From: Tetraselmis striata
Taxonomy: Eukaryota; Chlorophyta; Chlorodendrophyceae; Chlorodendrales; Chlorodendraceae
NCBI GenBank assembly: GCA_006384855.1
Contig: VCJN01000341.1
Coordinates: 1 to 64,000, forward strand
Length of the DNA: 64,000 bases
Direction of reading: 5' to 3'
In this document: positions 10,487 through 54,208 of the stretch, piece by piece
Layout of the letters: every line of letters begins with the position of its first letter
How positions within the stretch are numbered: the first letter of the stretch is position 1
The notes under the pieces: model-generated
What the model was told of the DNA's origin: nothing
Databases searched by the model: none
The model's input: only the letters and a program-made list of their open reading frames with translations
Program-made: the position numbers and the translations under genes

Positions 10487-10578
10487 CAGATCGCCGAACA
10501 GTAGGGCCACATGGGGGGCATTGTCCGTGCCGGCGGGGAGGCCGGTGCGAAGTAGGTGGGATGGGCGTTGTAGCACGC
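10487..10578 (-). mobile_element. Retroelement ORF1-like fragment, left flank of the giant element
   Basis: This stretch matches 41132-41223 (shared blocks include TCGCCGAACA and GTCCGTGCCGGCGGGGAGG). On the minus strand both encode the same peptide pattern (LPAGTD, then ALLFGD). It is one half of an old retroelement ORF; the other half resumes at 38545, so the 28-kb element between them is an insertion. The source ORF is broken and old. Confidence 0.7.
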
Positions 10579-10605
10579 AACAGTAATTTAACCTATTTTG
10601 CACCG
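10579..10605. repeat. Left terminal inverted repeat of the 28-kb element
   Basis: It matches the reverse complement of 38518-38544 at 25 of 27 positions (differences: TT versus GC after AACAGTAAT). A second ATTTTGCACCG follows at about 10615-10625, and this doubled arrangement is also seen at 43057-43107. Confidence 0.9.
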
Positions 10606-10775
10606 TGGAATTCATTTTGCACCGTAGGGTTTGTTTAAACCCTAGTTCCCGGGTCTACTATCAGTACTTAAGACTCACTGGTGATGTAGCTTGGGTTTGT
10701 AGACCTTGGGTGCAGTGCAACATTCATCAGCGTGCAGGCCGGCCGCGACGCATATCCAATGTTGGTTTTGGAGCA

Positions 10776-10796
10776 TTTTGTCCAAAATGGGACAAG
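10776..10796. repeat. Subterminal palindrome, TTTTGTCC/GGGACAAG type
   Basis: An imperfect palindrome just beyond the 3' end of the DUF7869-like gene and about 200 bp inside the left end. It shares the GGGACAA core with the intronic 24-bp repeat and with the right subterminal repeats. Confidence 0.6.
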
Positions 10797-10829
10797 ATGA
10801 GGCAATGAAATCAATATTTATTATGATGA

Positions 10830-13800
10830 TTACATCCAGCGGCTAGCTAGCCACAAGACGTTGCTGATAGTTTTTTCGTTGAGCATCCCCAACTCAAGCA
10901 AGTCCTTCTTCGTGGCTGCGTTAAACTAGACTCCGCCGGGTTTGCGTTGCGCTGGGGTGGTTGACATGACGTGGACGCAGTTGTTTCGTGGCTGGCTGAT
11001 TTGCCACCCAGTTTGCGCATATGTCTTCACGACTTGGCTTTTACCGTACCACTTCTTTCTGACCATGGTGCCGTCCTCGTTGAACACCTCTCGACTTCCC
11101 GACGCGTCGTGGATGGCCTTCGCGTACGATAGGGGGACGGCTTCAACAAGCTTCCAAGGAAGCGTCAGGCACTTATCCCAGCTTGTGTCAACTGGCTTCT
11201 TCCCTCCTTTTGTCTGCGCGTACAACCATAGGGGCATGAGGGGTTTGCCCTTTGCATCGGCATGGAAGGGCTCGTATACGGCCACGGTCAACGTGTCTTC
11301 GGTAGTCTCGCGCGACTTCACAAGCCCGATGACGAATCTCGACTCCCAATCACCAAGAGTTTCAGGACACTTGTCTTCCTCATGCACCTAACGATGGCCA
11401 AGACCGCGAGCTATGTTAGTCCCGAGCGAGCCGCCACGCCATTTTTGTCCCAGTTGGGACAAAATAACAAGCAAGGTAGATGAACCAAATTGTTTTGTCC
11501 CGTAAAGGACAAAAATGACAAACACTGGGACTCACATCGGAGACGTCGATGACAACGAGGTTCGAGCCCTTTGCATCGCTGGGCGATGTGTTGTCATGAA
11601 GCCTCTCCTTGGCGTCGGCGTGAACTCCCCGGAAGGCGCTGTCATCTTGAAGCACTTGAGCACGAACCTCGGCTTCAACGCGAGCGGCTTCGGCATTGTT
11701 GAGGTATGCGTTGGTAGCCATCGTGTGACGTGCCTCAGCAGGCGCGGTCTGCCCGTGCTCGCGCAAGAAGTCGTCAACTTCCTCTTTCCGTTGCGGCCAG
11801 AACCCGGAGAAAGCTGCAGAAGGAGCAGTTTGCATCTCATCCAAGTCGTCGAGCAGATCTGCCAACTCTCGCGCTCGACTGGGGAGAAGTGCCACTGGAC
11901 CGCCAGGTCCGTGATGTACGACCTGACCTTCTTGAAATCATCCAAGTACCTCTGGACCCTCACCGCGTCGGGCTTCTTTTTGTCGCAGAGAGCGTACAAA
12001 AGGGGCCGGCCCGCACGAATCTCGGGCGTCCCTGTTGGCGCGCTCTTCAAGATCTGCACGGGCTCAGAAAGCGGTGTGTTGGACCACAAGGCGGTGCGCA
12101 ACGAGCCGCCAGACGCGGCGGCGTCGTCACGGGTGAACTCGAATTTGTGCGGCTTACTGATGTCCTGAATGTGGTCTTGGAAATGGGGCCTTAACCACTC
12201 AAAGAAGTCGAGGGAGAATGCGAGCTCAGCAATCTCCGGAGTGGGCGAGAATGCCTTCGCCACCAAGTCAAGAAAGGCCTCGATTGTGTAGGCGGAGCTG
12301 CGAGATAGCGCAAGACTGATGCGACTGAAGATCTGGCCAACCCGTTCGTGAGTGTGCCCGACAGGCAAGAAGACCAAATGAATGACGTCGCAGATGCCGA
12401 TAGACACAAGCCAATTGCAGAGGGCCGCCACGTTCCTATTCTTGTTCTCCCTGACGGTGTTGTCCATCTGGATTCTGATGTACGGAATCTTTCTACCACG
12501 ATGTTGAATTTCCTGCATCGCAGATCAGATTTCATCAGTCCATGGCTACCGGACAACCACGGCGAACCTATCGGATGGCTAACGAGCTCACCTTCATGAT
12601 CGTGATCCATATTAGAGTGCACGTCGTGGACGAATCGTGGGGGATGGTGTTGGTGTAGTAGTAGATGTCGTCCGGGCGGTATCCATCGTACTTCACACAG
12701 GTGAGGTGGTACTTGAGGAGCATGTCGGGCTTCACAGTCTTGGGGATGCGAACCCAGTGAGACAGCAGGGTCTTCGCGGAGTCCATGCTATCAATTTCGA
12801 AGAAGAAGAAGTTTCCATGGCCAAGGCGCGACTGGAAGACGGCGTTGTTCAGATCCCCTCGTTCCTGGCGCACTCTCTCGAGGTGTACCTTCTGCTCCGC
12901 TATGACCTGACGCCTCACCCGCAGCTGATGTTGACGGTGCACTTGACGTTCCTCTGGCGTCATGTCCTTTATTTGTGCAAATCTCGCGAGCTTGGTCTCT
13001 GAGTGCTTTGCCCGCCGCGCATATGGGACAGTGGCTGAATCGCTTCACTTTTGGCGTGGTGACATCCGGGAAGTCTTCCTTCCAAGTCCGGCGGAAAGTG
13101 TCGAACGATGCCAGCTTCACTTCGCTCTCGGTAGCCAAATCTACAAAGGGGCAAGGGCATGATAGGTCGGTAGACAAATAAGGTCTCAAAATGCGAGACA
13201 GAAAAGTTCGGTCTAAAGTGGGTCGAAATAATTATATCGATAGTAGGTGAACAATTCTGTAATCAGCAGGGCGAAACAATCTGTCATCAGTGTGACGAAA
13301 CGGTATGTCAGTAGTGGGACAAAACCGTCTCTCAGCAGTGGACGATATCGGCTAATTATGTGGGACAAATGCTTTTGTGGTCGGCGGGACGAAACGGTTT
13401 GTCATCAGCGGGACAAAACGGTCTGTCATCAGCGGGACAAAACGGTATTTCATCAGTGGGACGAAACGGTTTGTCATCAGCGGGACAAAACGGCATATAA
13501 TTAGCGGGACATAACGGTTTGTCATCAGCGGGACAAAACGGTTTGTCATCAGCGGGACAAAACGGTCTGTAATTAGCGGGACAAAACGGTCTGTAATTAG
13601 CGGGACAAAACGGTTTGTCATCAGCGGGACGAAACGGTCTGTCATCAGTGGGACAAAATGGGCCTCACCTCGGAGAATGGCGTTGTCGTCCTCGGCCCAC
13701 GACTTGTAGTAGTAGTAGACGCAAATCTTGGTCATCCAGGGAGGTAGGTGCTTCTTGAAGGTCTCGCTGTTGCCGTCATGAAAAGGCATGATCTCGACGT

Positions 13801-14494
13801 GACCGAGGTCATCTGAGAAGAAGTGCTCGAGAAACATGCGCACATGCTCCCTCGGTCCGGTTTGTCTGCTCTCGTATTGCTTGCGCTGCCTGATGTACGT
13901 GGGTTCGTTATCCACCACCGACCGCTGGATCACGAGACGTCTGTGTTTCGAGACTTGATGCAAGGCCTCCCACGCACGCCCACACGTGTAGATGGGGCCT
14001 CGATGATCGAAAGAGCGCAAGTAGCCACCGTGATCAAACATGTAATCGAACTTGTCGGATGCCGACTCGTAGCCACCCCTGAGAACCTGAGCGAGCCGGT
14101 CAAAAAAGCGGTTTTGATTGCCAGAGTAGACGGTCAACGCACGGTCCAACACGGCATCAACGAGGGCCTCTCCGCACTGTGTGTATAGCTTGTGCACGCA
14201 CTTCCGCGAACAGTATGGCGACTGCTCGCTAGCCTCCTTGGCGAGCATGAGGCGGATACAATCGCGAGAGGTGCGCTTGCTGATCAGAGCCGAGGCCTTG
14301 CCATTATCGCTTTCGGCGACCTCATCGGAGCCCTTGCCCCACGTGTGCTTCCTTTTCTCAGGCTCCTTACGATCACTCGCACGCGCGTCGCAATCACACG
14401 AGTACCCGCTGCGGCACGAACACGGCGGTAATGTAACTGTAGTGTCCGACGCGCCGGATCCCGGAGAAGAGGCCATGCTTTCGACCGCCACCAT
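10830..14494 (-). CDS. DUF7869-like protein, candidate transposase
   Basis: Minus-strand gene, about four exons: 14494-13669, 13140-12592, 12512-11536 and about 11391-10830. The first exon encodes a Cys-rich start (CSCRSGYSCDC) and a region ending YYYYKSWAEDDNAILR. The second has TFRRTWKEDFPDVTTPKVKR, a CPIC motif and a Gln/Arg-rich coiled stretch, then FFFFEIDSMDSAKTLLSHW. The third has QMDNTVRENKNR and LVFLPVGHTHERVGQIFSR. This order and these motifs are those I know from the DUF7869 family, multi-copy proteins of algae, oomycetes and animals that look like RNase-H-fold transposases; that role is inference. Two frame changes (near 13010 and 11870) and an in-frame TAG at 10926-10928, after which coding-like sequence continues 32 codons to TAA, suggest decay. 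Intron 1 (13141-13668) holds the 24-bp repeat; intron 3 holds two palindromes. Confidence 0.7.
11443..11464. repeat. Perfect palindrome in intron 3 of the DUF7869-like gene
   Basis: Arms TTTTGTCCCA and TGGGACAAAA flank a 2-base centre. The core GGGACAAAA is the same as in the 24-bp intronic repeat. Confidence 0.8.
11493..11514. repeat. Second palindrome in intron 3 of the DUF7869-like gene
   Basis: Arms TTTTGTCC and GGACAAAA around a 6-base loop (CGTAAA), 28 bases after the first palindrome, within the same short intron (about 11392-11535). Confidence 0.8.
13247..13660. repeat. 24-bp hairpin repeat array in intron 1 of the DUF7869-like gene
   Basis: About 17 units, diverged towards the left end. 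The main unit contains GACAAA-ACGG-TTTGTC, a perfect 6-bp stem with a 4-base loop, followed by ATCAGCGG. It is the same repeat as in the introns of the neighbouring methyltransferase gene, in the same genomic orientation, so antisense relative to this gene. Confidence 0.9.
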
Positions 14495-15044: not shown

Positions 15045-15484
15045 ATGGCGCCGAAGAAGAACGAGCCTGCCAAGGACAAGGAAGACAATGACGACGCCAC
15101 CCCAGGTGAGTTGCGCGCGCGTACAGTAGCTGCCTGCCTGCTCGACGCGTGATACGGCCAGATCTAGCGAGTTCGGTTAGGGTTCCCTGTAGAAGCGGTG
15201 TAATTTAGGACCGCTCGAGGTGTAGGCAGACGAGTGGGAATAGAAACCATAACGAGACGAGCGCGCGGCATCAGGGTCCTGCAGGGTAATATTACGTCCC
15301 GTCGAGGCAGCTGCGGCAAGTTCAATAAGGATGCTAATTGGTGGTGGGAGGGGGTGGGGGTGGAGAGCGGCCAGGTGGAACCTGTGCATGTACTCCGCCG
15401 TAAGGAGTGGTTAGATATTAGTGTGAAGCGCAGTACTTAAAGACATAACATTATTAAACCGCAGTACATAATGTATTGGAAATA

Positions 15485-18400
15485 TTTTTGTAATCAGTGG
15501 GACGAAACGGTTTGTCATCAGTGGGACAAAACGGTTTGTCATCAGTGGGACGAAACGTTGTGTCATCAGTGGGACGAAACGGTTTGTCATCAGTGGGACG
15601 AAACGGTTTGTCATCAGTGGGACGAAACGGTGTGTCATCAGTGGGACGAAACGAGCTGTCATGAGTGGGACGAAACGGGTTGTCATCAATGGGACGAAAC
15701 GGTTTGTCATCAGTGGGACGAAACGGTTTGTCATCAGTGGGACGAAACGGTCTGTCATCAATGGGACGAAACGGTTTGTCATCAGTGGGATGAAACGGTC
15801 TGTCATCAATGGGACGAAACGGTCTTTCATGAGTGGGACGAAACGGTTTATCATCAGTGGGACGAAACGGTTTGTCCTCAGTGGGACGAAACGGTTTGTC
15901 ATCAGTGGGACGAAACGGTTTGTCATCAGTGGGACGAAACGGTCTGTCATCAGTGGGACGAAACGGTCTGACAGAATATGATATTTATAGGTCGAAGGTC
16001 CAAGCGGACATCAAAACCTACCGAGAAAGCAAACGAATTCGATACGCTCGGAGCGCTAGTCGGGAGAAAACACAAGGCGTCATCTTTTGTGCCCGAGCAG
16101 CCGGCGGCGAAGAAGAGCGAGCCTGCCAAGGACAAGGAAGACAATGACGACGCCACCCCAGGTGAGTTGCGCGCGCGTACAGTAGCTGCCTGCCTGCTCG
16201 ACGCGTGATACGGCCAGATCTAGCGAGTTCGGTTAGGGTTCCCTGTAGAAGCGGTGTAATCTAGGACCGCTCGAGGTGTAGGCAGACGAGTCGGAATAGA
16301 AACCATAACGAGACGAGCGCGCGGCATCAGGGTCCTGCAGGGTAATATTACGTCCCGTCGAGGCAGCTGCGGCAAGTTCAATAAGGATGCTAATTGGTGG
16401 TGGGAGGGGGTGGGGGTGGAGAGCGGCCAGGTGGAACCTGTGCATGTACTCCGCCGTAAGGAGTGGTTAGATATTAGTGTGAAGCGCAGTACTTAAAGAC
16501 ATAACATTATTAAACCGCAGTACATAATGTATTGGAAATATTTTTGTAATCAGTGGGACGAAACGGTTTGTCATCAGTGGGACAAAACGGTTTGTCATCA
16601 GTGGGACGAAACGTTGTGTCATCAGTGGGACGAAACGGTTTGTCATCAGTGGGACGAAACGGTTTGTCATCAGTGGGACGAAACGGTGTGTCATCAGTGG
16701 GACGAAACGAGCTGTCATGAGTGGGACGAAACGGGTTGTCATCAATGGGACGAAACGGTTTGTCATCAGTGGGACGAAACGGTTTGTCATCAGTGGGACG
16801 AAACGGTCTGTCATCAATGGGACGAAACGGTTTGTCATCAGTGGGATGAAACGGTCTGTCATCAATGGGACGAAAACGGTCTTTCATGAGTGGGACGAAA
16901 CGGTTTATCATCAGTGGGACGAAACGGTTTGTCCTCAGTGGGACGAAACGGTTTGTCATCAGTGGGACGAAACGGTTTGTCATCAGTGGGACGAAACGGT
17001 CTGTCATCAGTGGGACGAAACGGTCTGACAGAATATGATATTTATAGGTCGAAGGTCCAAGCGGACATCAAAACCTACCGAGAAAGCAAACGAATTCGAT
17101 ACGCTCGGAGCGCTAGTCGGGAGAAAACACAAGGCGTCATCTTTTGTGCCCGAGCAGCCGGCGGCGAAGAAGAGCGAGCCTGCCAAGGACAAGGAAGACA
17201 ATGACGACGCCACCCCAGGTGAGTTGCGCGCGCGTACAGTAGCTGCCTGCCTGCTCGACGCGTGATACGGCCAGATCTAGCGAGTTCGGTTAGGGGTTCC
17301 CTGTAGAAGCGGTGTAATCTAGGACCGCTCGAGGTGTAGGCAGACGAGTCGGAATAGAAACCATAACGAGACGAGCGCGCGGCATCAGGGTCCTGCAGGG
17401 TAATATTACGTCCCGTCGAGGCAGCTGCGGCAAGTTCAATAAGGATGCTAATTGGTGGTGGGAGGGGGTGGGGGTGGAGAGCGGCCAGGTGGAACCTGTG
17501 CCTGTACTCCGCCGTAAGGAGTGGTTAGATATTAGTGTGAAGCGCAGTACTTAAAGACATAACATTATTAAACCGCAGTACATAATGTATTGGAAATATT
17601 TTTGTAATCAGTGGGACGAAACGGTTTGTCATCAGTGGGACAAAACGGTTTGTCATCAGTGGGACGAAACGTTGTGTCATCAGTGGGACGAAACGGTTTG
17701 TCATCAGTGGGACGAAACGGTTTGTCATCAATGGGACGAAACGGTTTGTCATCAGTGGGACGAAACGAGCTGTCATGAGTGGGACGAAACGGGTTGTCAT
17801 CAATGGGACGAAACGGTTTGTCATCAGTGGGACGAAACGGTTTGTCATCAGTGGGACGAAACGGTCTGTCATGAGTGGGACGAAACGGTTTGTCATCAGT
17901 GGGACGAAACGGTCTGTCATCAATGGGACGAAACGGGTTGTCATCAATGGGACGAAACGGTTTGTCATCAGTGGGACGAAACGGTCTGTCATGAGTGGGA
18001 CGAAACGGTTTGTCATCAGTGGGACGAAACGGTCTGTCATCAATGGGACGAAACGGTATGTCATGAGTGGGACGAAACGGTTTATCATCAGTGGGACGAA
18101 ACGGTCTGTCATCAATGGGACGAAACGGTCTGTCATGAGTGGGACGAAACGGTTTATCATCAGTGGGACGAAACGGTTTGTCCTCAGTGGGACGAAACGG
18201 TTTGTCATCAGTGGGACGAAACGGTTTGTCATCAGTGGGACGAAACGGTTTGTCATCAGTGGGACGAAACGGTCTGTCATCAGTGGGACGAAACGGTCTG
18301 ACAGAATATGATATTTATAGGTCGAAGGTCCAAGCGGACATCAAAACCTACCGAGAAAGCAAACGAATTCGATACGCTCGGAGCGCTAGTCGGGAGAAAA

Positions 18401-21400
18401 CACAAGGCGTCATCTTCTGTGCCCAAGCAGCCGGCGGCGAAGAAGAGCGAGCCTGCCAAGGACAAGGAAGACAATGACGACGCCACCCCAGGTGAGTTGC
18501 GCGCGCGTACAGTAGCTGCCTGCCTGCTCGACGCGTGATACGGCCAGATCTAGCGAGTTCGGTTAGGGTTCCCTGTAGAAGCGGTGTAATCTAGGACCGC
18601 TCGAGGTGTAGGCAGACGAGTGGGAATAGAAACCATAACGAGACGAGCGCGCGGCATCAGGGTCCTGCAGGGTAATATTACGTCCCGTCGAGGCAGCTGC
18701 GGCAAGTTCAATAAGGATGCTAATTGGTGGTGGGAGGGGGTGGGGGTGGAGAGCGGCCAGGTGGAACCTGTGCCTGTACTCCGCCGTAAGGAGTGGTTAG
18801 ATATTAGTGTGAAGCGCAGTACTTAAAGACATAACATTATTAAACCGCAGTACATAATGTATTGGAAATATTTTTGTAATCAGTGGGACGAAACGGTTTG
18901 TCATCAGTGGGACAAAACGGTTTGTCATCAGTGGGACGAAACGTTGTGTCATCAGTGGGACGAAACGGTTTGTCATCAGTGGGACGAAACGGTTTGTCAT
19001 CAATGGGACGAAACGGTTTGTCATCAGTGGGACGAAACGAGCTGTCATGAGTGGGACGAAACGGGTTGTCATCAATGGGACGAAACGGTTTGTCATCAGT
19101 GGGACGAAACGGTTTGTCATCAGTGGGACGAAACGGTCTGTCATGAGTGGGACGAAACGGTTTGTCATCAGTGGGACGAAACGGTCTGTCATCAATGGGA
19201 CGAAACGGGTTGTCATCAATGGGACGAAACGGTTTGTCATCAGTGGGACGAAACGGTCTGTCATGAGTGGGACGAAACGGTTTGTCATCAGTGGGACGAA
19301 ACGGTCTGTCATCAATGGGACGAAACGGTATGTCATGAGTGGGACGAAACGGTTTATCATCAGTGGGACGAAACGGTCTGTCATCAATGGGACGAAACGG
19401 TCTGTCATGAGTGGGACGAAACGGTTTATCATCAGTGGGACGAAACGGTTTGTCCTCAGTGGGACGAAACGGTTTGTCATCAGTGGGACGAAACGGTTTG
19501 TCATCAGTGGGACGAAACGGTTTGTCATCAGTGGGACGAAACGGTCTGTCATCAGTGGGACGAAACGGTCTGACAGAATATGATATTTATAGGTCGAAGG
19601 TCCAAGCGGACATCAAAACCTACCGAGAAAGCAAACGAATTCGATACGCTCGGAGCGCTAGTCGGGAGAAAACACAAGGCGTCATCTTCTGTGCCCAAGC
19701 AGCCGGCGGCGAAGAAGAGCGAGCCTGCCAAGGACAAGGAAGACAATGACGACGCCACCCCAGGTGAGTTGCGCGCGCGTACAGTAGCTGCCTGCCTGCT
19801 CGACGCGTGATACGGCCAGATCTAGCGAGTTCGGTTAGGGTTCCCTGTAGAAGCGGTGTAATCTAGGACCGCTCGAGGTGTAGGCAGACGAGTGGGAATA
19901 GAAACCATAACGAGACGAGCGCGCGGCATCAGGGTCCTGCAGGGTAATATTACGTCCCGTCGAGGCAGCTGCGGCAAGTTCAATAAGGATGCTAATTGGT
20001 GGTGGGAGGGGGTGGGGGTGGAGAGCGGCCAGGTGGAACCTGTGCCTGTACTCCGCCGTAAGGAGTGGTTAGATATTAGTGTGAAGCGCAGTACTTAAAG
20101 ACATAACATTATTAAACCGCAGTACATAATGTATTGGAAATATTTTGTAATCAGTGGGACGAAACGGTTTGTCATCAGTGGGACAAAACGGTTTGTCATC
20201 AGTGGGACGAAACGTTGTGTCATCAGTGGGACGAAACGGTTTGTCATCAGTGGGACGAAACGGTTTGTCATCAATGGGACGAAACGGTTTGTCATCAGTG
20301 GGACGAAACGAGCTGTCATGAGTGGAAAGAAACGGGTTGTCATCAATGGGACGAAACGGTTTGTCATCAGTGGGACGAAACGGTTTGTCATCAGTGGGAC
20401 GAAACGGTCTGTCATGAGTGGGACGAAACGGTTTGTCATCAGTGGGACGAAACGGTCTGTCATCAATGGGACGAAACGGGTTGTCATCAATGGGACGAAA
20501 CGGTTTGTCATCAGTGGGACGAAACGGTCTGTCATGAGTGGGACGAAACGGTTTGTCATCAGTGGGACGAAACGGTCTGTCATCAATGGGACGAAACGGT
20601 CTGTCATGAGTGGGACGAAACGGTTTATCATCAGTGGGACGAAACGGTCTGTCATCAATGGGACGAAACGGTCTGTCATGAGTGGGACGAAACGGTTTAT
20701 CATCAGTGGGACGAAACGGTTTGTCCTCAGTGGGACGAAACGGTTTGTCATCAGTGGGACGAAACGGTTTGTCATTAGTGGGACGAAACGGTTTGTCATC
20801 AGTGGGACGAAACGGTCTGTCATCAGTGGGACGAAACGGTCTGACAGAATATGATATTTATAGGTCGAAGGTCCAAGCGGACATCAAAACCTACCGAGAA
20901 AGCAAACGAATTCGATACGCTCGGAGCGCTAGTCGGGAGAAAACACAAGGCGTCATCTTCTGTGCCCAAGCAGCCGGCGGCGAAGAAGAGCGAGCCTGCC
21001 AAGGACAAGGAAGACAATGACGACGCCACCCCAGGTGAGTTGCGCGCGCGTACAGTAGCTGCCTGCCTGCTCGACGCGTGATACGGCCAGATCTAGCGAG
21101 TTCGGTTAGGGTTCCCTGTAGAAGCGGTGTAATCTAGGACCGCTCGAGGTGTAGGCAGACGAGTGGGAATAGAAACCATAACGAGACGAGCGCGCGGCAT
21201 CAGGGTCCTGCAGGGTAATATTACGTCCCGTCGAGGCAGCTGCGGCAAGTTCAATAAGGATGCTAATTGGTGGTGGGAGGGGTGGGGGTGGAGAGCGGCC
21301 AGGTGGAACCTGTGCATGTACTCCGCCGTAAGGAGTGGTTAGATATTAGTGTGAAGCGCAGTACTTAAAGACATAACATTATTAAACCGCAGTACATAAT

Positions 21401-25282: not shown

Positions 25283-25475
25283 CAGAATATGATATTTATA
25301 GGTCGAAGGTCCAAGCGGACATCAAAACCTACCGAGAAAGCAAACGAATTCGATACGCTCGGAGCGCTAGTCGGGAGAAAACACAAGGCGTCATCTTCTG
25401 TGCCCGAGGAGCCGGCGGCGAAGAAGAGCCGTGCAGCCTCAGCTTCTGGAGCTAGAGCGGGCGCTGAGGCATCAG
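15991..25475 (+). repeat. Nine tandem exon-intron modules of the methyltransferase gene
   Basis: Exons at 15991-16161, 17048-17218, 18321-18491, 19593-19763, 20864-21034, 21918-22088, 22998-23168, 24270-24440 (each exactly 171 nt) and 25302-25475 (174 nt, diverged 3' half). All begin after TTTATAG, end at GTGAGT (the last at GTAACC) and are phase 1-1, so each adds or drops 57 residues without a frame change. The peptide is Lys/Ser-rich, for example RRSKRTSKPTEKANEFD and later KKSEPAKDKEDNDDATPG. Exon 1 matches the 3' part of the module. Module spacings are 1057, 1273, 1272, 1271, 1054, 1080, 1272 and 1032 bp; the large differences are whole multiples of 24 bp to within 1-2 bases. Confidence 0.9.
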
Positions 25476-28029: not shown

Positions 28030-28115
28030 GTTAAAAATATGTGTCAGTGGGACGAAACGGTATGTCATCAGTGGGACGAATCGATCTGTAATCAGCGGGA
28101 CGAAACGGTTTGTCA
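28030..28115 (+). repeat. Short relic of the 24-bp repeat in a downstream intron
   Basis: Three to four diverged units sit in the 226-bp intron 27940-28165 of the methyltransferase gene. The repeat thus occurs in introns well away from the tandem modules. Confidence 0.85.
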
Positions 28116-29311
28116 TCGAGGTACAATCGTTCGGAATTTTGAAATCGGTGCAATTGATTCTGCAGAACCTTCGCCGATGTTTCGAGAGCTGGTATGCAGA
28201 TCAGGATGCAACTCGCCCCGGCTTTAGGGCACTTCCGCAAATCAAAGTCATGAAGGAGTTCAAGAAGTCTGAAGTTCTTCAAGTTGAACTTGAGAAGATC
28301 GGCGTCAAAGATGCGAAGAGCAGCGAGTTCTCAAATTTGATTGACCTCTGCTCGCGCCCACAACGGTAAGCTGCGTACATGATGAAAATTTATCGTGTTG
28401 TTAATGCTGCTAGATTCTGACAATTGATTTGCGCAGTGTTTTTGAGCCCCTTGAGCAGATTTCTGAAGCCTACCGGCATGTGGAGCTCGGGGCTCGAGGA
28501 TAGGACGAAGCCAGAACCAAACTCGGAGACCTATTTATGTACTACCAGCAAGAACTCGATAGAGTCAAGCGTCTCAATTGCGGCAGGCAACTCACCCAGA
28601 AGGAAGTGAGGAAGGTTTACGAAGCAACTCGGAAGCCTTTCAATGCAATCCTCGATAACAAGAAGTACGGCTTCGGCAAAGACAGAGCTCACTTCCGAGT
28701 CGCCCTCATGGAGGTAAGTTGTGACCGACCCCAGTGTCTTAATCACATGGAATACTATCATTCCTTTCTCCGTACTGAAGTTTGTTATTCGACCCAGGAT
28801 GTTGGCTTTGGACCCCATGCGCCCTGGCTAGACGAGCCGTCTCTTGCCAAGCAGAGCGACAGCGCGGATCTCCCTGTGGGCCAGATGTACCTAGTGGTTG
28901 GACTGCTCATCCAAGGCGAGCACAGTGTGACCCCGAGCCTCTACGAGCTGGTGGATGACATAAAGCAAACATGCGACAATGGCCCCATGGCTTTTACGCA
29001 CACCAACGCGGAGTGGCTCGCGATGATTGAGACCTGGAGGTTTCGCGATCTCTTGCGTCGAGCAAGCATCAAGCTCATGAATGCCATTGACACGGCCAAG
29101 GGCAGAGAGGCAATCCAACTGCTGACGCCGGACGAACCGGCCAGGAATTGGGGGAAATATCTCTCGGACCACATCATCGATTGGGATGTGGAAGACAAAG
29201 TGTCGGATGAGCAAGCGGCCGCTCGCCTTGACGCCATCACCAAGTTCCGAGCCAAGGTTGATGACCTCGGCCCAACAGGCTTCCCCAGAAAGTTCAGGGA
29301 TTTGTTCAAAG

Positions 29312-29321
29312 GTGCTCATCG
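29312..29321. repeat. Left 10-bp target duplication (GTGCTCATCG)
   Basis: Exact match to 36558-36567; the neighbouring bases on both sides differ, so the duplication is exactly 10 bp. Confidence 0.9.
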
Positions 29322-29383
29322 GGAAAAAGGGCAAATATCGAGTCAAAATGGGGACATTTACGGACTCGAAAATGTGCCCCCCT

Positions 29384-29427
29384 TAACTCGGTTTTTGCAC
29401 CCCCCAAGGGGGTGCAAAAACTGAGTA
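29384..29427. repeat. Subterminal hairpin of the nested transposon
   Basis: TTTTTGCACCCCCC is followed directly by GGGGGTGCAAAAA with a 2-base loop. A smaller hairpin (ATGTACCC/GGGTACAT) lies near the right end at about 36452-36475. Both may be sites of DNA structure or protein binding. Confidence 0.7.
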
Positions 29428-29692
29428 ACGCCCAATACCGTACGAATGTACTGTGAAACTGGCCTTTCACACATTCTTGCCAACACTGTACGAGGTACCC
29501 TTCACCTATACTGCACTATGTACTACGCATATGTCCACCGCCCCTTGACGAGATGCGTCGCTACCAGTCCATGCTAACCGTTTTTGCCTCGAATGCTACT
29601 CCGTCGCTGTGCTTTTCACTCTTCTATCACTCGCAAGCACCCTCGCGCTTTTGTTTAGGGAGGCATCTTCACGCATCTTGGTTCACAAAAGC

Positions 29693-31595
29693 ATGGCAGA
29701 CCATCCTCGCAAAGGAAAACGCACCTCTGCCCGGTTGAAGACTCCGGTGGCGGGGGCATCTGCAGCTGCGCTTGGTTTCGAGCCAACGACGGCTCCCGAC
29801 GCACTGCTAGTGACCCCCATGGCGCAAGATTCTCCGCAGATGCACTTGCGTTCGGGCAGGAGGGCGTGTCAGGCTCCAATACCCACGACTCAGCCCAAAA
29901 GGCCCCTGCAACCGAGCGGTGGGCAACATCGGAGCGGACCGCCATGGCCTTGGTACGGCGGAGATTCGCAGCCTTTGGCCGAGCCGGGGCCTCAGCCTAA
30001 CCCCTAGCCTCGAGGCGTGCCACCTTTGGACCCACTCCCCGGAGCGACTCCAACGGTACGCGGACTCGCATCTTCGTTAGCATCACTCATCTCGGCGCCG
30101 TGGGCTGCGTTAAGCGCACCTCGCCATCGCGCATCTCAGGGATCTCAACCCACGCAGACCGATGTCAAACAGTCTGGAGCCGGTCTAGGTGAACCTTTGG
30201 CCACGATTCATGAGGATGAGCACGGACAGGAAGAGGAGGAGGAGGAGAAAGAGGAGGAGGAGGAGGAGGGGCCCATTACTGTCGGAGGGTGTCCGCCTGG
30301 ACAAACGAGCTCCGCCACAAGCGCCACAAGTGGGAGCAAAATGGTAACCCCTCGCCCCTTGTCAACAAAACCTCAAACGTGTGCGCATCTTCGCGCGTGA
30401 GGGAAAAGATTCTCACACGCCCCCCCTCCCTACATAGACCATCTCCACGACCCCCTTCAACAAGAAGCGCCACTTGTCGACCCAATGCTCGGCGAAAACT
30501 GTGAAACACTGTGGCTACTCGATTCGCAGCGTGCGCGAATGGCACAACGACTACGAGATGCGGCGCGGCATTCAACAAATCAAGAACAAACGCTTCACGA
30601 AGTCCACCAACACCTGCCAGCCCTGCCAAGGCAGCTCGGCACCCCGCACCGTCTTGGTCGACAACCGCTACTACCAGGTCGTAGCGGCAACTCGTTAGGC
30701 TGGCGGATCCTCCAAGCCCGCATCTCAACCACCGCCAGCGGGGTCCGGTGGAGATGGTTCCCAAAACGGCGCTGCAACAGGTCTCCTCGAGCGTCGAGCA
30801 GCTCCGCCCCTCCCCCAAGCAAGCTTGGTCCCTTGGTGACTGCCAAGCCGCCGAGTGAGCCTCAGCCTTCGAGAGCGACGAAGCGCTCGCACGGTGCGTT
30901 GAGCACAGCAGGCAAGACCACTTTGTCGCCCATGAAGCTGCGTAGGAAGCGTTCCGAGAAGCGCGGGCCGAGTCCTCCTTTGAAGATGGCGAAAGAATTG
31001 GAGGCCGACGACCCCCTAAGCCGAAACGCGAAACCCGGTCAAGCCGCCAGGCGCCTTCGGGTGCCGCTGCTGGAAGTCGCCTTGCCACATCTTCCCATGG
31101 CGGTGCCCCATCTCTGCGTCCCCGACCCACATCTCCGCCCAAAAAGCCCTCATCTCGGGACGCAAAGCCCGTAACGCCGCATGCGCGGACATCTCGGCCT
31201 CCTACTAAATGTATCTCTCGTGTACAAACCCGTGTATTGTCGCTCCTAGCTCTACTTGTAACGCTGCCCTGTCCAAGGAGCCCTTTGTCGTTGTCACGTC
31301 GCCTTGGTTCACTCACCTGGATGTCCTCCTACCGTTGCTGGCGGCCTCCAAGGCGGAAATCTATCGCGTGCAGATTCCGAGCACCTACTTGACGCAAGGG
31401 CCCCTCCCGCGAATGATCTACCTCGACAGCCTGTTGACAGCGAATCGTGTACTTTTCATCGCGTCAAAGCACCCAAGAAACCCCGAAACCAACGGACGCG
31501 CCTTGTGGTTTGTCGTCGGAAGAGATTCGGCGACTTTTAGAGCGCACCTCTCGGAGCACCTCGGCAAGCAACGTGAGTTCGTGTCTGGTCCGTGA
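29693..31595 (+). CDS. Unrecognised gene of the nested transposon (copy A)
   Basis: A first exon reads MADHPRKGKRTSARLKTP and continues as a Pro/Gln-rich chain (PLAEPGPQPNP) across an in-frame TAG at 30005-30007 into an acidic tract (EEEEEEKEEEEEEGP); a GTAACC donor follows at about 30344. A second block (about 30451-30698) has TVKHCGYSIRSVREWHNDYE and NTCQPCQGS, which could be a helix-turn-helix and a Cys pair, and runs through TAG at 30696-30698; copies at 34265 and 36165 have CAG there. A third block (31209-31595) has PFVVVTSPWFTHLDVLLPLL and VLFIASKHPRNPETNGRALW. I do not recognise the family. It might be captured host sequence or a decayed transposase. Confidence 0.4.
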
Positions 31596-31751
31596 CAAGG
31601 GATTCATGCAGCTTGAAATTCGCTGCCATAGCGCCCTAGACAATACCTCATTAATCATAGTCAACGATCATAACAAATCATTCTCAACCGCAGATAAGAG
31701 TTGAATCGACTCCTGTCCGTCGATTTCACAAACCGCACTTCCTTTGCTAGC

Positions 31752-32372
31752 GCGGCCGGGGCAGCGGGGCGCCAACGCGCCGCGGCCGGGGCAGCGGGGC
31801 GCCAACGCGCCGCGGCCGGGGCAGCGGGGCGCCAACGCGCCGCGGCCGGGGCAGCGGGGCGCCAACGCGCCGCGGCCGGGGCAGCGGGGCGCCAACGCGC
31901 CGCAGCCGGGGCAGCGGGGCGCCAACGCGCCGCGGCCGGGGCAGCGGGGCGCCAACGCGCCGCGGCCGGGGCAGCGGGGCGCCAACGCGCCGCGGCCGGG
32001 GCAGCGGGGCGCCAACGCGCCGCGGCCGGGGCAGCGGGGCGCCAACGCGCCGCGGCCGGGGCAGCGGGGCGCCAACGCGCCGCGGGCCGCGCAGCGGGGC
32101 GCCAACGCGCCGCGGCCGGGGCAGCGGGGCGCCAACGCGCCGCGGGCCGCGCAGCGGGGCGCCAACGCGCCGCGGCCGGGGCAGCGGGGCGCCAACGCGC
32201 CGCGGGCCGCGCAGCGGGGCGCCAACGCGCCGCGGGCCGCGCAGCGGGGCGCCAACGCGCCGCGGGCCGCGCAGCGGGGCGCCAACGCGCCGCGGGCCGC
32301 GCAGCGGGGCGCCAACGCGCCGCGGGCCGCGCAGCGGGGCGCCAACGCGCCGCGGGCCGCGTTGGCGCCGCG
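31752..32372. repeat. 30-bp GC-rich minisatellite, about 21 units
   Basis: Units share GGGGCGCCAACGCGCCGCGG and differ in one block (GCCGGGGCAG in the left half, GGCCGCGCAG becoming dominant to the right). Because the unit is a multiple of three and lacks stops, several frames stay open for more than 200 codons; this is a composition effect, not evidence of a gene. Confidence 0.95.
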
Positions 32373-32389
32373 GGCGGCGCATGTTTGTG

Positions 32390-34165
32390 ATTCATGCAGC
32401 CCCGCATACTTATAAATGGTTTGCAGCCATCCAGGCAATCAAAGCATGCTTAAAGGCAGCATCTGCGGTGCAGCGCTGCAGCAACCTGCGGCGTGTTGCC
32501 AGCAAATATCAAGCATTAGCCCTACTGCCTTGCAATCCGTATAGTATCGTCAAGCAGGTGCGTGTTTATATCCCTTTCATGCCATGCAGCCCCGCATACT
32601 TATAAATGGTTTGCAGCCATCCAGGCAATTAAAACATGCCTTAAGGCAGCATCTGCGGTGCAGCGCTGCAGCAATCTGCGGCGTGCCGCCAGAAAATATA
32701 AGGTATTAGTCGTACTGCCATGCAATCTGCATAGTATCGTCAAGCCAATGCGTGTTCACATCCCTTCTATGCAATGCAGCCCCGCATACTAAATGATTTG
32801 CAGCCATCCAGGCAATTAAAACATGCCTTAAGGCAGCATCTGCGGTGCAGCGCTGCAGCAATCTGCGGCGTGCCGCCAGAAAATATAAGGTATTAGCCGT
32901 ACTGCCATGCAATCTGCATAGTATCGTCAAGCCGATGCGTGTTCACATCCCTTCTATGCAATGCAGCCCCGCATATTAATAAATGGGTTGCAGCCATCTA
33001 GGCAAATGGCTGCAGCAATCTGCGGTGTGCCGCCAGCAAATATAAGGTATTAGCCGTACTGCCATGCAATCTGCATAGTATCGTCAAGCCGATGCGTGTT
33101 CACATCCCTTCTATGCCATGCAACCACGCATACTAAATGATTTGCAGCCATCCAGGCAATTAAAACATGCCTTAAGGCAGCATCTGCGGTGCAGCGCTGC
33201 AGCAATCTGCGGCGTGCCGCCAGAAAATATAAGGTATTAGCCGTACTGCCTTGCAATCTGTATAGTATCGTCAAGCCGGTGCGTGTTCACATCCCTTCTA
33301 TGCAATGCAGCCCCGCATATTAATAAATGGGTTGCAGCCATCTAGGCAAATGGCTGCAGCACTCTGCGGTGTGCCGCCAGCAAATATAAGGTATTAGCCG
33401 TACTGCCATGCAATCTGCATAGTATCGTCAAGCCGATGCGTGTTCACATCCCTTCTATGCCATGCAACCACGCATACTAAATGGTTTGCAGCCATCCAGG
33501 CAATTAAAACATGCCTTAAGGCAGCATCTGCGGTGCAGCGCTGCAGCACTCTGCGGCGTGCCGCCAGCAAATATAAGGTATTAGCCGTACTGCCTTGCAA
33601 TCTGTATAGTATCGTCAAGCCGGTGCGTGTTCACATCCCTTCCATGCCATGCAGCCCCGCATACGAAATGGTCTGCAGCCATCTAGGCAAATGGCTGCAG
33701 CAATCTGTCGCGTGCCGCCAGCTATTATCAGGCATTAGCCGTACTGCCTTGCAAATCTGTATAGTATTGTCAAGCCGGTGCGTGTTCACATCCCTTCTAT
33801 GCCATGCAGCCCCGCATACTAAATAATTTGCAGCCATCTAGACAATTACAGCATGCCTTAAGGCAGCATCTGCGGTGCAGTGCTGCAGCAATCTGCGGCG
33901 TGCCGCGAGCACATATCAGGCATTAGTGGTACTGCCTTGCAAATCTGTATAGTATCGTCAAGCCGGTGCGTGTTCACATCCCTGCTATGCCATGCAGCCC
34001 CGCATACTAAATGGTTTGCAGCCATCTAGACAATTAGAGCACGCCTTAAGGCAGCATCTGCGGTGCAGCGCTGCAGCAATCTGCGGCGTGCCGCGAGCAA
34101 ATATCAGGCATTAGTGGTACTGACTTGCAATCTGTATAGTATTGTAAAGCATATGGGCAAGTAAA
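32390..34165. repeat. Satellite of alternating 185- and 159-bp units
   Basis: About ten units, each with a CCCCGCATACT-like block, a GCAGCATCTGCGGTGCAGCG block (missing in the short form) and GTATCGTCAAGCC. Short and long units alternate in the middle (344-bp higher-order period, for example starts near 32706, 33050 and 33394). Outer units are more diverged. Confidence 0.9.
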
Positions 34166-34199
34166 TTCCCTTTTATCATAGAATCCTCATACTGGAAGG

Positions 34200-34810
34200 T
34201 TGCCGAGCCAGCTCTTTACCCCCCACGGTCGTGGTCGACGATCGCTACTACCAGGTCGTAGCGGCGCCGCGTCAGGCTGGCGGGTCCTCCAAGCCCGCAT
34301 CTCAACCGCCGCCACCGGGGTCCGGCGGAGATGGCTCCCAAAACGGCGCTGCAGCAGGTCTCTTGATAGAGCTTCGAGCAGCTCCGCCCCTCCCCCGAGC
34401 AGGCTTGGTCCCTCGGAGACTGCCAAGCCGCCGAGTGAGCCTCAGCCTTCGAGAGCGACGAAGCGCCCGCACGGTGCGTTGAGCACGGGAGGCAAGAGCA
34501 GCTTGTCGCCCATTAAGCTGCGCAAGAAGCATTCCAAGGAGCGCGGGCCGAGTCTTCCTCCAAGATGGCGATAGAGCTGGAGGACGACGACCCTTCCAGG
34601 CGCCTAAGCCGAAACGCGAAGCCACATCAAGCCATCAGGCGCCTTCGGGTGCCGCTGGTGGGAGTCGCAGGGCCATATCTTCCCGTGGCGGTGCCGCATC
34701 TCCGCCTCCCCGACCCGCGTCTCCGCCTATGGAGGCAAGAGCAGCAGCTTGTCGCCCATTAAGCTGCGCAAGAAGCATTCCAAGAAGCGTGGGCCGACTC
34801 CTCCTTTTGG
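34200..34810 (+). repeat. Copy B of the transposon gene segment
   Basis: It matches about 30640-31160: the DRYYQVVAA peptide, then QAGGSSKPASQPPPPGSGG and a Ser/Pro/Arg-rich stretch. It has CAG at 34274 where copy A has TAG. Part of the segment (GGCAAGAGCAGCTTGTCGCC) is repeated within it at about 34735. Confidence 0.8.
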
Positions 34811-34819
34811 AAGAGCCTC

Positions 34820-35905
34820 AGGCCACCGCTGGCAACAATGACGAGCAAGAGATGCAGAGGGTGGAGATAGTTAAGTGTGAGGGGTGGGATTACCCGCATC
34901 TCGACAGCAAGAGCAGGTGAACGCCCGCATCTCTCGCGTAAAAACCCGTGTACTGTCGCTCCTAGCTCTTTTAACGACGAGACGCTTTTCCAAACCCGAC
35001 TCCAGTGCGTCGTGGAACCTTGTCTTACAGGTGGTTACGCCGAGAGAGATGCGGTAATGAAACCCGGAGGCCCACTTTGAGGACGACAAGTACATCCTCG
35101 TGTCAGTCTTGCCAGCGGTGGGTGAGGCCACCGCTGGCAAGACTGACGAGCAAGAGATACATAGGGTGGAGAGATTTTACCGTGACGGTGGGGGTACCGC
35201 ATCTCCGCAGGTGAACGCCCGCACCTCTCGCGTAAAAACCCGTGTACTGTCGCTCCTAGCTCTTGTAACGACGAGACGCTTTTCCAAACCCGACTTCTGT
35301 GCGTCGTGGAAACATGTCTTACAGACGGTTGCGCCGAGAGAGATGCGGCACTGGAACCCGGAGGCCCACATTGGGGACGACAAGTACATCCTCGCGCCAG
35401 TCTTGCCTCCGGTCACCGCTGGCAAGACTGACGAGCAAGAGATGCAAAGGGTGGAGAGATTTACCGTAAGGGTGGGATTACCCGCATCTCGGCAGCAAGA
35501 GCAGGTGAACGCCCGCATCTCGCGTAAAAACCCGTGTACTGTCGCTCCTAGCTCTTGTAACGACGAGACGCTTTTCCAAACCCGACTTCTGTGCGTCGTG
35601 GGACCATCTCGTACAGACGGTTGCGCCGAGAGAGATGCGGCACTGGAACCCGGAGGCTCGCGTCAGTCTTGCCAGCTGTGGCTGAGGCCACCGCTGGCAA
35701 GACTGACGAGCAAGAGATGCATAGGGTGGAGAGAGTCAACCGTGACGGTGGGGGTACCGCATCTCGGCAGCGGGGGCAGGTGAACGCCCGCATCTCGCGT
35801 AAAAACCCGTGTACTGTCGCTCCTAGCTCTTGTAACGATGAGACGCTTTTCCACACCCGGCTCCCGTGCGTCGTGGAACCTTGTCTTGCAGGCTGTTGCG
35901 CCGGA
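34820..35905 (+). repeat. Coding tandem repeat, about 290 bp, 3.7 copies
   Basis: Units start near 34820, 35128, 35418 and 35690. A frame open from 35100 to 35783 crosses them and encodes TRVLSLLALVTTRRFSKPD and QTVAPREMRHWNPEAHIGDD. A related block occurs once at about 31200-31270. The last unit leads into copy C. Confidence 0.8.
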
Positions 35906-36300
35906 CTTTTCCGTAGATTGGTGGTACGCTGCCGTGGATTCTGCCCTCTTCGGGGAGTGCCAAAGCAAGATTGTAAAACACTGTGGCTACTCGATTCGCA
36001 CCGTGCGCGACTGGCGCAACGACAACGAGATGCGGCGCGGCATTCAACACATCAAGAAGCAACGCTTATTAAGTCCACCAACACCTGCTTGATCTGCCGA
36101 GCCGGGTCTCTAACCCCCCCCCCTTCCCGTCTTAGTCGATGACCGCTACTACCAGGTCGTAGCGGCGCCGCGTCAGGCTGGCGGGTCCTCCAAGCCCGCA
36201 TCTCAACCACTGCCAGCGGGGTCTGGCGGAGATGGCTCCCAAAACGGCGGCGCTGCAGCAGGTCTCTTGGAGCTTCGAGCAGCGAGGAGTGAAATCCTTA
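35906..36300 (+). repeat. Copy C of the transposon gene segment
   Basis: It encodes VDWWYAAVDSALFGECQSK then IVKHCGYSIRTVRDWRNDNE, the counterpart of copy A near 30480-30570, followed by DRYYQVVAAPRQAGGSSKP with CAG at the position that is TAG in copy A. It is followed within 200 bp by the right end of the transposon. Confidence 0.75.
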
Positions 36301-36557
36301 ACAGGGTGGGCCACCGTGGCGCGCAAAATGGCGCGAAGTAGCCCCACCACCTAGGTTGAGGCGGGTAGTACTTTACGCAGGAGAGGGCGCGAAGAGGACA
36401 CGGCGAATGGTCATTGTTAGTACTCTCGTATAGTTATAAATTGCACCTGAAATGTACCCAAAAAGTGGGTACATATACGAGTCTAAGCGATCACGTGGGG
36501 GGCACATTTTCGAGTCCGTAAATGTGCCCATTTTGACTCGATATTGCCCCCTGTACC

Positions 36558-36567
36558 GTGCTCATCG
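36558..36567. repeat. Right 10-bp target duplication (GTGCTCATCG)
   Basis: Exact copy of 29312-29321. It shows that the host gene was intact across this point before insertion. Confidence 0.9.
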
Positions 36568-38225
36568 CTCCGGTCCTTTGATGGTCTTGCTGACCCCTCT
36601 TGCCAGATGGGGGGACATGAAATCCGCCGATTGTCTCACACCACTACCGGTTCGACAGCATATCGCGGCCACCAACACCACCATCAGGAGTGAGGCGTAT
36701 CGCATCAAGAATCAGATGCCGGACTTGCTCATCTCCTTCTTCACAGAGTTTGCTCTTCTGGCATGTGCGCCGGAGCTTATCGCGGTTTCCGCTCCGAATG
36801 TTTCTCATGAGCTGTGGATATTGATGAAGGTAACTAAGATCTTGTGCAACCACAAATGCTCTTCTGAATTTTCGTTGTGAGCTATTAACCCGAATCTGTT
36901 TTCTAATACACACAGGCCGAGGCACTTCCGGTGATGCCCAAGGGCTTTGAGGTCGACAAGGATGACAAGGTGTGGTTGAACACGGAGCTTTGCAAGACTT
37001 GCATTGTGGAGGGGGACTTCAAGGCTCCCGCGACAAAACAAGCCGTCGTGGACGCCATGTCGGCAGTTCGTGCCTGATCGGCAACATTCTTCATTGCCGA
37101 CGCGCTTTTCGGAGCTGGTTCGCACACATGGGACTCGAAGGATGCTGCGTGGGGTACGGACGACTTCAACGACGTGTTTGCTTTCGCCAGGCAAGACAAC
37201 CCCCACAACCCCGGTGCGTAGATGACTGTGCTTTCATTTATCTCATTCCCGATTTTCCCCCGCGCAGGCAGTTGAATATCCTGACTGGATCTTCTTACGT
37301 CCACACTGCTCTCGATGGGTGCCATTTCTTCATTCACCTCTCGGACCAGCAACTTGGATCCGCAATCACAGCCGTTCAAAACAAGTTGAGGACCTCATCT
37401 ATCACGTCCTGACTTGGGCCAAGGATTGCGGGATCAAGATGGGCAGCTCTCTGCGTCACGACGCTGAGTACTACCTCTACGTCAGGAAGCCCCCGCCAAG
37501 CATCATAGCTGACAACATCCGTTTCGATGATCTCCGAAGGTGAGATTTGATCCGTGGAAAATAGCCGGCTTGTATTTATTTACTCGCTAACCCGGTTGTG
37601 CCTTTCCAGGTTCTCTACATCCATCATGTTGGGTCACTTCAAAGACAGTTCGAAATTGAAGGACGAGAACAGACAAACGGTGAACAAGTCCCAAAAGCCT
37701 ATCGCTCTCTTCGCGAATCGCCTTAAGATGGCGGCAACAGACGGAATAACAATCGTCGACGTCACAGCCGGAACCGGGACAACCGCGGTGCGTAAGGGGT
37801 GCAACCCGGGTGAGTGTCTTAATGGGATCAACATAAAAATTTTAACGCCTTGTGCGGTTTGCCACGCCTTTTCCAGGTCGCTGCGGCCTTTTCTGTGTGG
37901 TGGGACCATATGCATCCGAGCTACTCGTTCACACACAGGAACTTGAAGACGATCCTCATTGACAACCAAAAGACACAAATCGCTGGGATGAAGTCCAGGA
38001 TGACCTCATGGTTCAAAGAGAAGCCATGGGACGAGGCTCAAAGACTGCGTCCAAATGACTTCGAGAGAGAAGTGGCCGGGTCTACCCCTTCCAATGACCG
38101 TGGGAGAGGAGTTCGCAGAGCGTCTCGCGGCGGAGAAGAGGAGGCAAGAGGCGGCAGAGCGCCGAGGGGATTATGTGATCAAAGATGATGATATGTAGTA
38201 CAATTCCGCAAAATTAGCCGCTCAT

Positions 38226-38405
38226 ATGTTTTGTCCCGGCTTTGACAGAGTTTCAGCCCCGGACAGCACAAACTACTTGTAGCCATCACGGCCCCCGCAC
38301 TTTTTTTTGTCCCAGTTTGGACAGAGTTTCAGCCCCCGATGGCGCAAACTTCTTGTAACCATCCCGTTTCCTTCACTCTTTTGATTTGTCCATGTTTGGA
38401 CGGAA
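38226..38405. repeat. Right subterminal repeats of the 28-kb element
   Basis: Three diverged copies of about 80-85 bp, each beginning with a TTTTGTCCC-type block followed by TTTGGACAGAGTTTCAGCCC or a relative. The reverse complement of each carries the GGGACAAAA core of the intronic repeat, so related motifs stand near both ends of the element. Confidence 0.75.
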
Positions 38406-38517
38406 TTGGTTTCCCCGACTTGGCACAACATGAACCAACTGTCATTCATATTAGCTTTCAATCCCGCTGCTGCCCCCAAACCCTAATTTAGACCTAACCA
38501 CAATGCACCGCGTGCCT

Positions 38518-38544
38518 CGGTGCAAAATAGGTTGCATTACTGTT
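38518..38544. repeat. Right terminal inverted repeat of the 28-kb element
   Basis: The reverse complement matches 10579-10605 at 25 of 27 positions. It is followed by the ACGC target duplication and by retroelement ORF sequence matching 41225 onward. Confidence 0.9.
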
Positions 38545-52156: not shown

Positions 52157-52202
52157 CGGTGTGGCCCGCCGCGCCGACTCCTGTACGCCTACCTCCCTCT
52201 AC

Positions 52203-54200: not shown

Positions 54201-54208
54201 GCCGGGCT

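Follow-up and report, generated by a model that had tools for sequence, protein, structure and literature searches.

The DNA analysed here (the window) is a stretch of 64,000 nucleotides from the alga Tetraselmis striata (contig VCJN01000341.1, positions 1 to 64,000), and its positions 10579-38544 hold one member of an abundant family of DNA transposons of the cut-and-paste type with terminal inverted repeats (TIRs). The element carries a gene for a protein with the Pfam domain DUF7869 and, on the opposite strand, a partner gene with a C-terminal N6_N4-methyltransferase-like domain; a second transposon family, only distantly related, has the same two genes. Taken as a whole, these observations are, with good confidence, best explained by a cut-and-paste TIR transposon with a DUF7869 transposase and a conserved methyltransferase-like accessory partner.

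Ends, target duplications and empty sites

The outermost bases of the window copy are 10579 and 38544, and its TIRs, at 10579..10605 (plus strand, beginning AACAGTAATTTAACC) and 38518..38544 (minus strand), match at 25 of 27 bases when the ends are compared pairwise. On either side lies the target-site duplication ACGC (10575..10578 and 38545..38548); an earlier note on this DNA, made from the sequence alone, had given the same values for ends and duplication. A related uninterrupted site is found in the window itself at 41124..41597, with a lone ACGC at about 41219-41222. The joined flanks of the element align to this region (41.1-41.6 kb) gap-free across the junction, with 429 of 491 bases identical (88% over 474 bases in a second alignment), which confirms the empty site that had been placed at about 41219. 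The earlier note had also relied on the rejoining of a retroelement open reading frame upon removal of the element. Frames do cross the junction after computational removal, but this is weak evidence because four of them, each of at least 120 amino acids (aa) and two per strand, span it, and the retroelement identity of the flank is not established; the uninterrupted relative at 41 kb is better evidence of insertion.

Genome searches, as the earlier note had recommended for the ends, were made in a 224-Mb assembly, in the numbering of which the window lies on contig C264. The TIR pattern, with up to two mismatches allowed, has 607 matches (309 + 298), compared with none (0 + 0) for the pattern read backwards. 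The start base is identical in many other copies, and left and right ends differ at two pattern positions (TT, GC) and can thus be told apart. Target duplications were checked in 18 copies, which were picked since both ends fell on one contig among the matches listed and are not a random sample. They comprise 15 pairs, 12 of them with an exact duplication, together with the copies on C24, in the window and on C1495, all three exact, so that an exact 4-bp duplication is found in 15 of the 18. Since C483 and C613 share flanks and represent one insertion, this corresponds to 14 of 17 insertions; otherwise the duplicated words are all distinct, and the target sequences (81 flanks) are mixed in composition. 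The copy on C1495 (locus L044) is a 1.4-kb internal-deletion derivative that keeps both ends and has its own GGGT duplication.

Empty sites were sought by joining 120 bases from each side of nine insertions with one copy of the duplication, the best 40 candidates being scored. Near full-length matches spanning the junction were obtained for four of the nine (C163, C345, C464 and C363), and, with one match fetched each, the site is intact over the junction for C163 (236/240 identical), C345 (225/238) and C464 (225/234). The duplication of constant length and the precise empty site that characterize a TIR transposon are thus found in 15 of 18 copies and in three of four fetched sites plus the window relative, respectively. 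An assembly artefact was considered and rejected in view of the many copies and the empty sites. The mostly constant 4-bp duplications, the precise empty sites, the deletion copy on C1495 and the DDE-like spacing described below suggest that the DUF7869 protein moves the element by a cut-and-paste mechanism.

Element size and the two genes

The compact copy on C24 is 12,010 bp long, so that 28 kb is not a size proper to the element. The 28-kb transposon of the earlier note is correct as a span; the window copy owes this length to about nine repeats of an internal unit and to a 7.2-kb element inserted within it, these two components accounting for the extra length relative to C24. The roughly nine tandem copies of a 1.05-1.27-kb unit, recognized by comparison with C24 and its open frames and by Tandem Repeats Finder (TRF) arrays, occupy 15045..25450 (about 15.0-25.4 kb) and start near 15045, 16103, 17160, 18433, 19705, 20976, 22030, 23110 and 24382; the unit is single in C24 (C24 positions 4749-5817). 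Within every unit lie 24-bp minisatellite repeats and, according to the alignment, exon 1 of the gene on the opposite strand. One minisatellite 24-mer, with up to two mismatches, has 9,997 genome matches (5179 + 4818) and its reversed control none. The 24-bp arrays of C24 fall in putative introns of both genes and are omitted from the JGI models P0002 and P0062. In the window, TRF arrays of this kind lie at 13384..13658, taken as the first intron of the DUF7869 gene and absent from P0002, and at 28044..28117, read as an intron of the partner gene. By eye, the 24-mer core TGGGAC/GTCCCA resembles repeats near both element ends (about 10770-10800 and 38230-38400), which are possible protein-binding sites. 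The nested insertion (29322..36557) is a separate TIR element of 7,236 bp with 61-bp inverted ends, which is missing from C24 and foreign to the transposon family. It is flanked at 29312-29321 and 36558-36567 by the 10-bp repeat GTGCTCATCG, both flanks matching C24 bases 10033-10042, and contains its own 30-bp and 190/344-bp tandem repeats.

The DUF7869 gene lies on the minus strand at 10929..14494 and has four exons with approximate edges, their order being read from open copies and JGI gene models: exon 1 at about 13675-14494, exon 2 at about 12592-13144, exon 3 at about 11539-12512 and exon 4 within 10929-11387. The domain (Pfam PF25273) is recognized with an expectation value (E) of 3.7e-35 on a single exon and of 5.4e-44 with exons 2 and 3 joined. 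The DUF7869-like gene reported from the sequence is therefore real as regards its domain, but the frame of the window copy is broken in exons 2 and 3 relative to open copies. The genome contains the main DUF7869 exon in many open copies, and the JGI model P0002 represents a 90%-identity cluster of 45 sequences. A protein search with DUF7869 gave 54 matches, 52 of them named Tetstr1, which we take to be the JGI code of T. striata; one of these, P0043, carries by eye letters peculiar to the window copy, and the other two matches (P0053 and P0054) are ENA records with no organism shown. A second, alignment-based search gave 69 proteins among the matches listed, every one named Tetstr1, and a scan of IMG/VR for DUF7869 gave 24 pattern matches, none confirmed.

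Ratios of non-synonymous to synonymous polymorphism (pN/pS), which serve here as descriptive ratios and not as tests, copy pairs sharing history, are 0.38, 0.42 and 0.21 for the DUF7869 exons in frame, vs. 0.66-2.06 in the two wrong frames (18-21 copies), and the gene looks to be under purifying selection. The order D-x-x-D ... DNT ... HTHExxDQxFS is kept in all four divergent DUF7869 proteins compared (family 1, family 2, P0053 and P0054), the first and second D being separated by 81-82 residues, the second D and E by 38 (41 to the next D), the family-2 D-to-E interval resting on our own join over an assumed intron. A DDE transposase would be expected to show such a D-81/82-D-38-E arrangement, with D385, D468 and E507 as the predicted residues in P0002 and the RNase-H fold likewise predicted. 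The contrast in pN/pS, the constant acidic spacing and the matched ends in two families support the DUF7869 protein as the best transposase candidate, in agreement with the role first suggested for it.

The partner gene extends over 24382..38190 on the plus strand and has many exons, as judged by exon comparison with C24, C1272 and C163 and by Pfam on JGI models of other copies. In the window copy it is split by the nested 7.2-kb element, and the last tandem unit (from 24382) would correspond approximately to its 5' part. The exon at 36907..37409 runs to the motif IV region of the methyltransferase-like domain and includes the following segment, the open frame of the window copy being broken near 37074; exons at 37551..38185, delimited by comparison with other copies, carry motif I (VDVTAGTGTTAV) and the C-terminal part. 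The 18 JGI models of this gene are 828-1042 aa long. All four models scanned match PF01555 (N6_N4_Mtase; E 8.9e-06 to 2.5e-05), and all three compared with the CcrM model (NCBIfam NF050803) match it at E 0.0012-0.002. Scanned frame by frame with Pfam, the stretches at 34.15-38.54 kb (all six frames) and 25.3-30.3 kb (five frames out of six) revealed no methyltransferase, the domain surfacing only with exons joined. Homologues of the partner number 18 among the matches listed (7999 candidates scored), all named Tetstr1. The locus-tag numbers of eight of the 18 models are within two of that of a DUF7869 model, and at least 69 of 107 partner-gene matches have, among the matches listed, a DUF7869 match on the opposite strand in divergent orientation, 3-30 kb away (median 8.6 kb).

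Motif I (DVTAGTGTTAV/I) is contained in four of the 18 models as annotated and not in the other 14, and it is present in the DNA of the window, of C24 (one change) and of C163. The canonical catalytic motif IV of N4/N6 methyltransferases is [DNS]PP[YFW], e.g., DPPY; in the partner, all 18 family-1 models read ADALFG, i.e., DALF. Two partner exons display a contrast in pN/pS (0.47 and 0.49 vs. 0.84-1.07 in wrong frames; 19-25 copies), and two further exons give 0.49 and 0.86 from just 3-4 copies with no wrong-frame control.

A second family and the proposed roles of the two genes

The PF01555 genome search returned 104 matches that include a second repeated group, from which five loci were fetched (L145-L149). 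The flank of the C363 insertion reads by eye as an exon of a DUF7869-type gene, and one relative, on C761, sits 12 kb from a PF01555 match. There the minus strand carries the family-2 DUF7869 gene (two exons with Pfam E 7e-23 and 6.7e-13) and the plus strand the methyltransferase-like one. Identity between the family-2 DUF7869 protein and P0002 is 50% over 153 aa and 31% over 261 aa, and that between the family-2 partner (a relative on C2208; PF01555 E 6.8e-06) and family 1 is 30% over 210 aa (E 2e-15). Motif IV of family 2 is ADSNYG (DSNY) in four of the five loci (L145, L147, L148 and L149), L146 being without that part. Strong PF01555 matches at five places on contigs C1010, C2009, C1597 and C803 (E 6.9e-32 to 1.3e-14), unlike those of the transposon copies, would be host, viral or contaminant genes.

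The family-2 left end (AACATTCGTTCATTAAACATG) has 81 genome matches with up to three mismatches, vs. 2 for the control, and the right end (...CAATGTT) is marked by all 39 other main matches stopping at query positions 719-721 and confirmed by ten copies. Left and right ends of family 2 are identical at 21 of 28 bases, and both families begin with AACA and finish with TGTT. Exact 4-bp duplications flank seven of ten family-2 copies (C1740, C1479, C2762, C586, C2415, C1658 and C1735). One copy (L164/L165, on C541) lies between 11-base repeats (GGCACTCCACC), not a 4-bp duplication. The nine family-2 DUF7869 exon matches are all located inward of a family-2 left end, at a distance of 2.74-2.79 kb. 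Of 40 right ends, 14 have a left end facing them at 3-45 kb, and a right end lies within 4 kb of 17 of 24 partner-gene matches, these 24 having been picked by eye from the 104 PF01555 rows and the dropped 80 being family 1, single strong matches and short pieces. The gene pair thus recurs in a second, distantly related transposon family. The earlier idea that the methyltransferase gene is cargo does not agree with its place beside DUF7869 in at least 69 of 107 matches and its recurrence in a family with 31-50% (DUF7869) and 30% (partner) identity.

A number of observations speak against a cut-and-paste transposon with this division of labor. Exact duplications are missing from three of the 18 family-1 copies (C889 and C455 are off by one base and C436 is mismatched) and from three of the ten family-2 copies (C1697, C401 and C541), and the family-2 copy on C761, the right end of which is damaged, has no duplication. 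Among the four empty sites fetched, that of C363 aligns with a gap of 4 bases at the junction, and five of the nine insertions gave no empty copy among the best 40 candidates. The DDE (RNase-H) fold of DUF7869 is a prediction, and a DUF7869 profile search of solved structures gave zero matches up to E 10; further searches of solved structures were likewise uninformative. Stops and frame breaks are common among copies of both genes. As regards the partner, its methyltransferase Pfam scores (24.8-26.2) are just below the curated cut-off of 26.7, 38 of the 107 partner matches, including the window's own copy, are without an adjacent DUF7869 among the matches listed, and two exons are without contrast in pN/pS (0.63 vs. 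0.55/0.77 and 0.67 vs. 0.72/0.52; 19-25 copies), so that selection on this gene is weak within family 1.

These last points, namely two of four partner exons without selection contrast and stops in many copies, together with the absence of the catalytic Pro-Pro, would fit a methyltransferase-like gene that was captured once and is now decaying cargo with no role. We consider this improbable, as the partner is kept with a recognizable motif for S-adenosylmethionine (SAM) in two families of low identity, and its motif IV letters are identical in 18 of 18 gene models. It could also be imagined that the partner protein performs transposition and that DUF7869 is accessory, given that both genes are inside the element in both families and that the partner is large and mostly without Pfam match. 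However, DUF7869 displays the stronger in-frame contrast and a constant acidic spacing, and distant DUF7869 proteins (P0053 and P0054) were found, whereas the 18 partner homologues among the matches listed are all Tetstr1, which makes this exchange of roles very improbable.

In the preferred reading, with DUF7869 as transposase, the DUF7869 protein would be an RNase-H-fold DDE enzyme with the predicted triad D-81/82-D-38-E, binding the AACA...TGTT ends and cutting the target 4 bp apart. The partner could, more tentatively, derive from a beta-class N4/N6 amino-methyltransferase and serve as a conserved accessory factor; it probably still binds SAM, motif I being kept, and acts on the element's own DNA or chromatin, e.g., at the minisatellites or the ends. 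Conserved pairing and the kept SAM motif speak for a function of the partner, and the loss of Pro-Pro speaks against ordinary methylation. Since both families lack this catalytic pair, the partner may not methylate DNA, and the proposal that it could mark element or host DNA is to that extent undermined. That the partner is a changed or very weak methyltransferase seems to us almost an even question; that it is a non-catalytic regulator, decoy or reader is a serious but tentative possibility.

Should these roles hold, they would provide a likely function, that of a transposase, for a Pfam domain of unknown function, DUF7869, a term not found in the literature searched. They also suggest that a transposon can retain a methyltransferase-like partner over long divergence despite a lost catalytic motif. 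Transposons that bring DNA-modification proteins of their own lend themselves to testing how mobile DNA copes with host silencing, and the T. striata genome offers hundreds of ends, many open DUF7869 exon copies and precise empty sites for such testing.

Surroundings and comparison with known systems

Elsewhere in the window, a 368-bp satellite occupies positions 2-6970 (18.9 copies, 98% match). At 45767-48087 on the minus strand, an RNase H domain (E 8.3e-11) adjoins an open reading frame that matches PCIF1_WW (E 1.7e-09); the two may belong to a retroelement with an additional, methyltransferase-related domain. The 1096-aa open frame at 52157-55444, with a phage-integrase SAM-like match (E 4.1e-05), may belong to a tyrosine-recombinase element. 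Finally, a 26-residue match to MutS domain V (E 1.4e-09) lies in a GC-rich stretch at 56571-57713 on the minus strand.

Regarding class membership, Sola elements in general make 4-bp target duplications, as do both families described here. Ginger elements are characterized by a retrovirus-type integrase (rve) domain, and Ginger was set aside as no rve Pfam match was obtained in the proteins scanned. Academ elements have 3-4 bp duplications and XPG-nuclease-bearing proteins, although XPG is not found in all of them; the duplication length fits, and scans of joined exons and partner models gave no XPG Pfam match, a feature that is not universal in Academ. The KDZ transposase domain is a Pfam family. 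KDZ/Zisupton was rejected since no KDZ match was obtained in the proteins scanned and the duplication is 4 bp, not the 8 bp of Zisupton (PMC12730594). A viral element was likewise rejected, no viral domain having been found in the parts scanned with Pfam, with no dedicated search made. Rfam gave no match at the gathering cut-off.

Several known systems share part of this architecture. Sola2 makes 4-bp duplications (PMC3627910), and the Sola2 elements with Fanzor1 from Dictyostelium fasciculatum and Polysphondylium resemble the present ones in duplication length, short inverted ends and a captured second protein, with an 888-aa transposase in one Sola2 family (PMC3627910). Their targets are AT-rich whereas those of the T. 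striata element are mixed, and they are paired with Fanzor where the T. striata element has a methyltransferase-like protein. Mariner-1_OLpv and Mariner-2_PGv are also transposons that encode a methyltransferase but, unlike the present element, they have a Mariner transposase, a TA duplication and an extra endonuclease and are integrated in viruses (PMC3627910). The TET/JBP-bearing transposons of fungi, KDZ and others, likewise carry their own DNA-modification gene, which specifies a dioxygenase instead of a methyltransferase-like protein (PMC12730594). With beta-class N4/N6 DNA methyltransferases such as CcrM (PF01555, NF050803), the partner shares the motif I region and the preceding stretch, while DPPY is replaced by DALF in family 1 and by DSNY in family 2. 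The link to DUF7869, the loss of Pro-Pro and the two Tetraselmis families were not found in the literature searched, the scope of which left out subscription literature.

The closest relative by description is Sola1-1_Ec32 from Ectocarpus, a Sola1 element of 21.5 kb, the opposite strand of which encodes a 1104-aa protein that combines a ParB-like and an N4/N6-methyltransferase domain, similar proteins being cited from green and red algae (PMC12477816). Evenly balanced in our judgment is the view that the T. striata element is a plain Sola1-superfamily element, DUF7869 being what Pfam calls the Sola1-type transposase and the partner an accessory methyltransferase already described in Ectocarpus; the 4-bp duplications, which Sola2 makes likewise (PMC3627910), also favor it. 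In contrast, Pfam detects no ParB-like domain in the partner at E up to 0.5-1, where a diverged one could escape, the likeness to Sola is by description, and the term DUF7869 occurs in no paper of the literature searched, PMC12477816 included. It is unlikely, in our estimation, that DUF7869 would be the catalytic domain of an unrecognized transposase superfamily distinct from Sola, accompanied in algae by a dedicated accessory protein whose methyltransferase fold now binds SAM without methylating and serves to protect or direct the element's chromatin. A Sola-like nature of the element is probable but not certain. Although the earlier note knew of no described family with this architecture, it is not wholly new and belongs to a known kind because Sola1-1_Ec32 has a similar opposite-strand methyltransferase gene: both are giant DNA transposons in which a large protein with an N4/N6-methyltransferase domain (1104 aa in Ectocarpus, 828-1042 aa in T. 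striata) is encoded opposite the transposase strand (PMC12477816).

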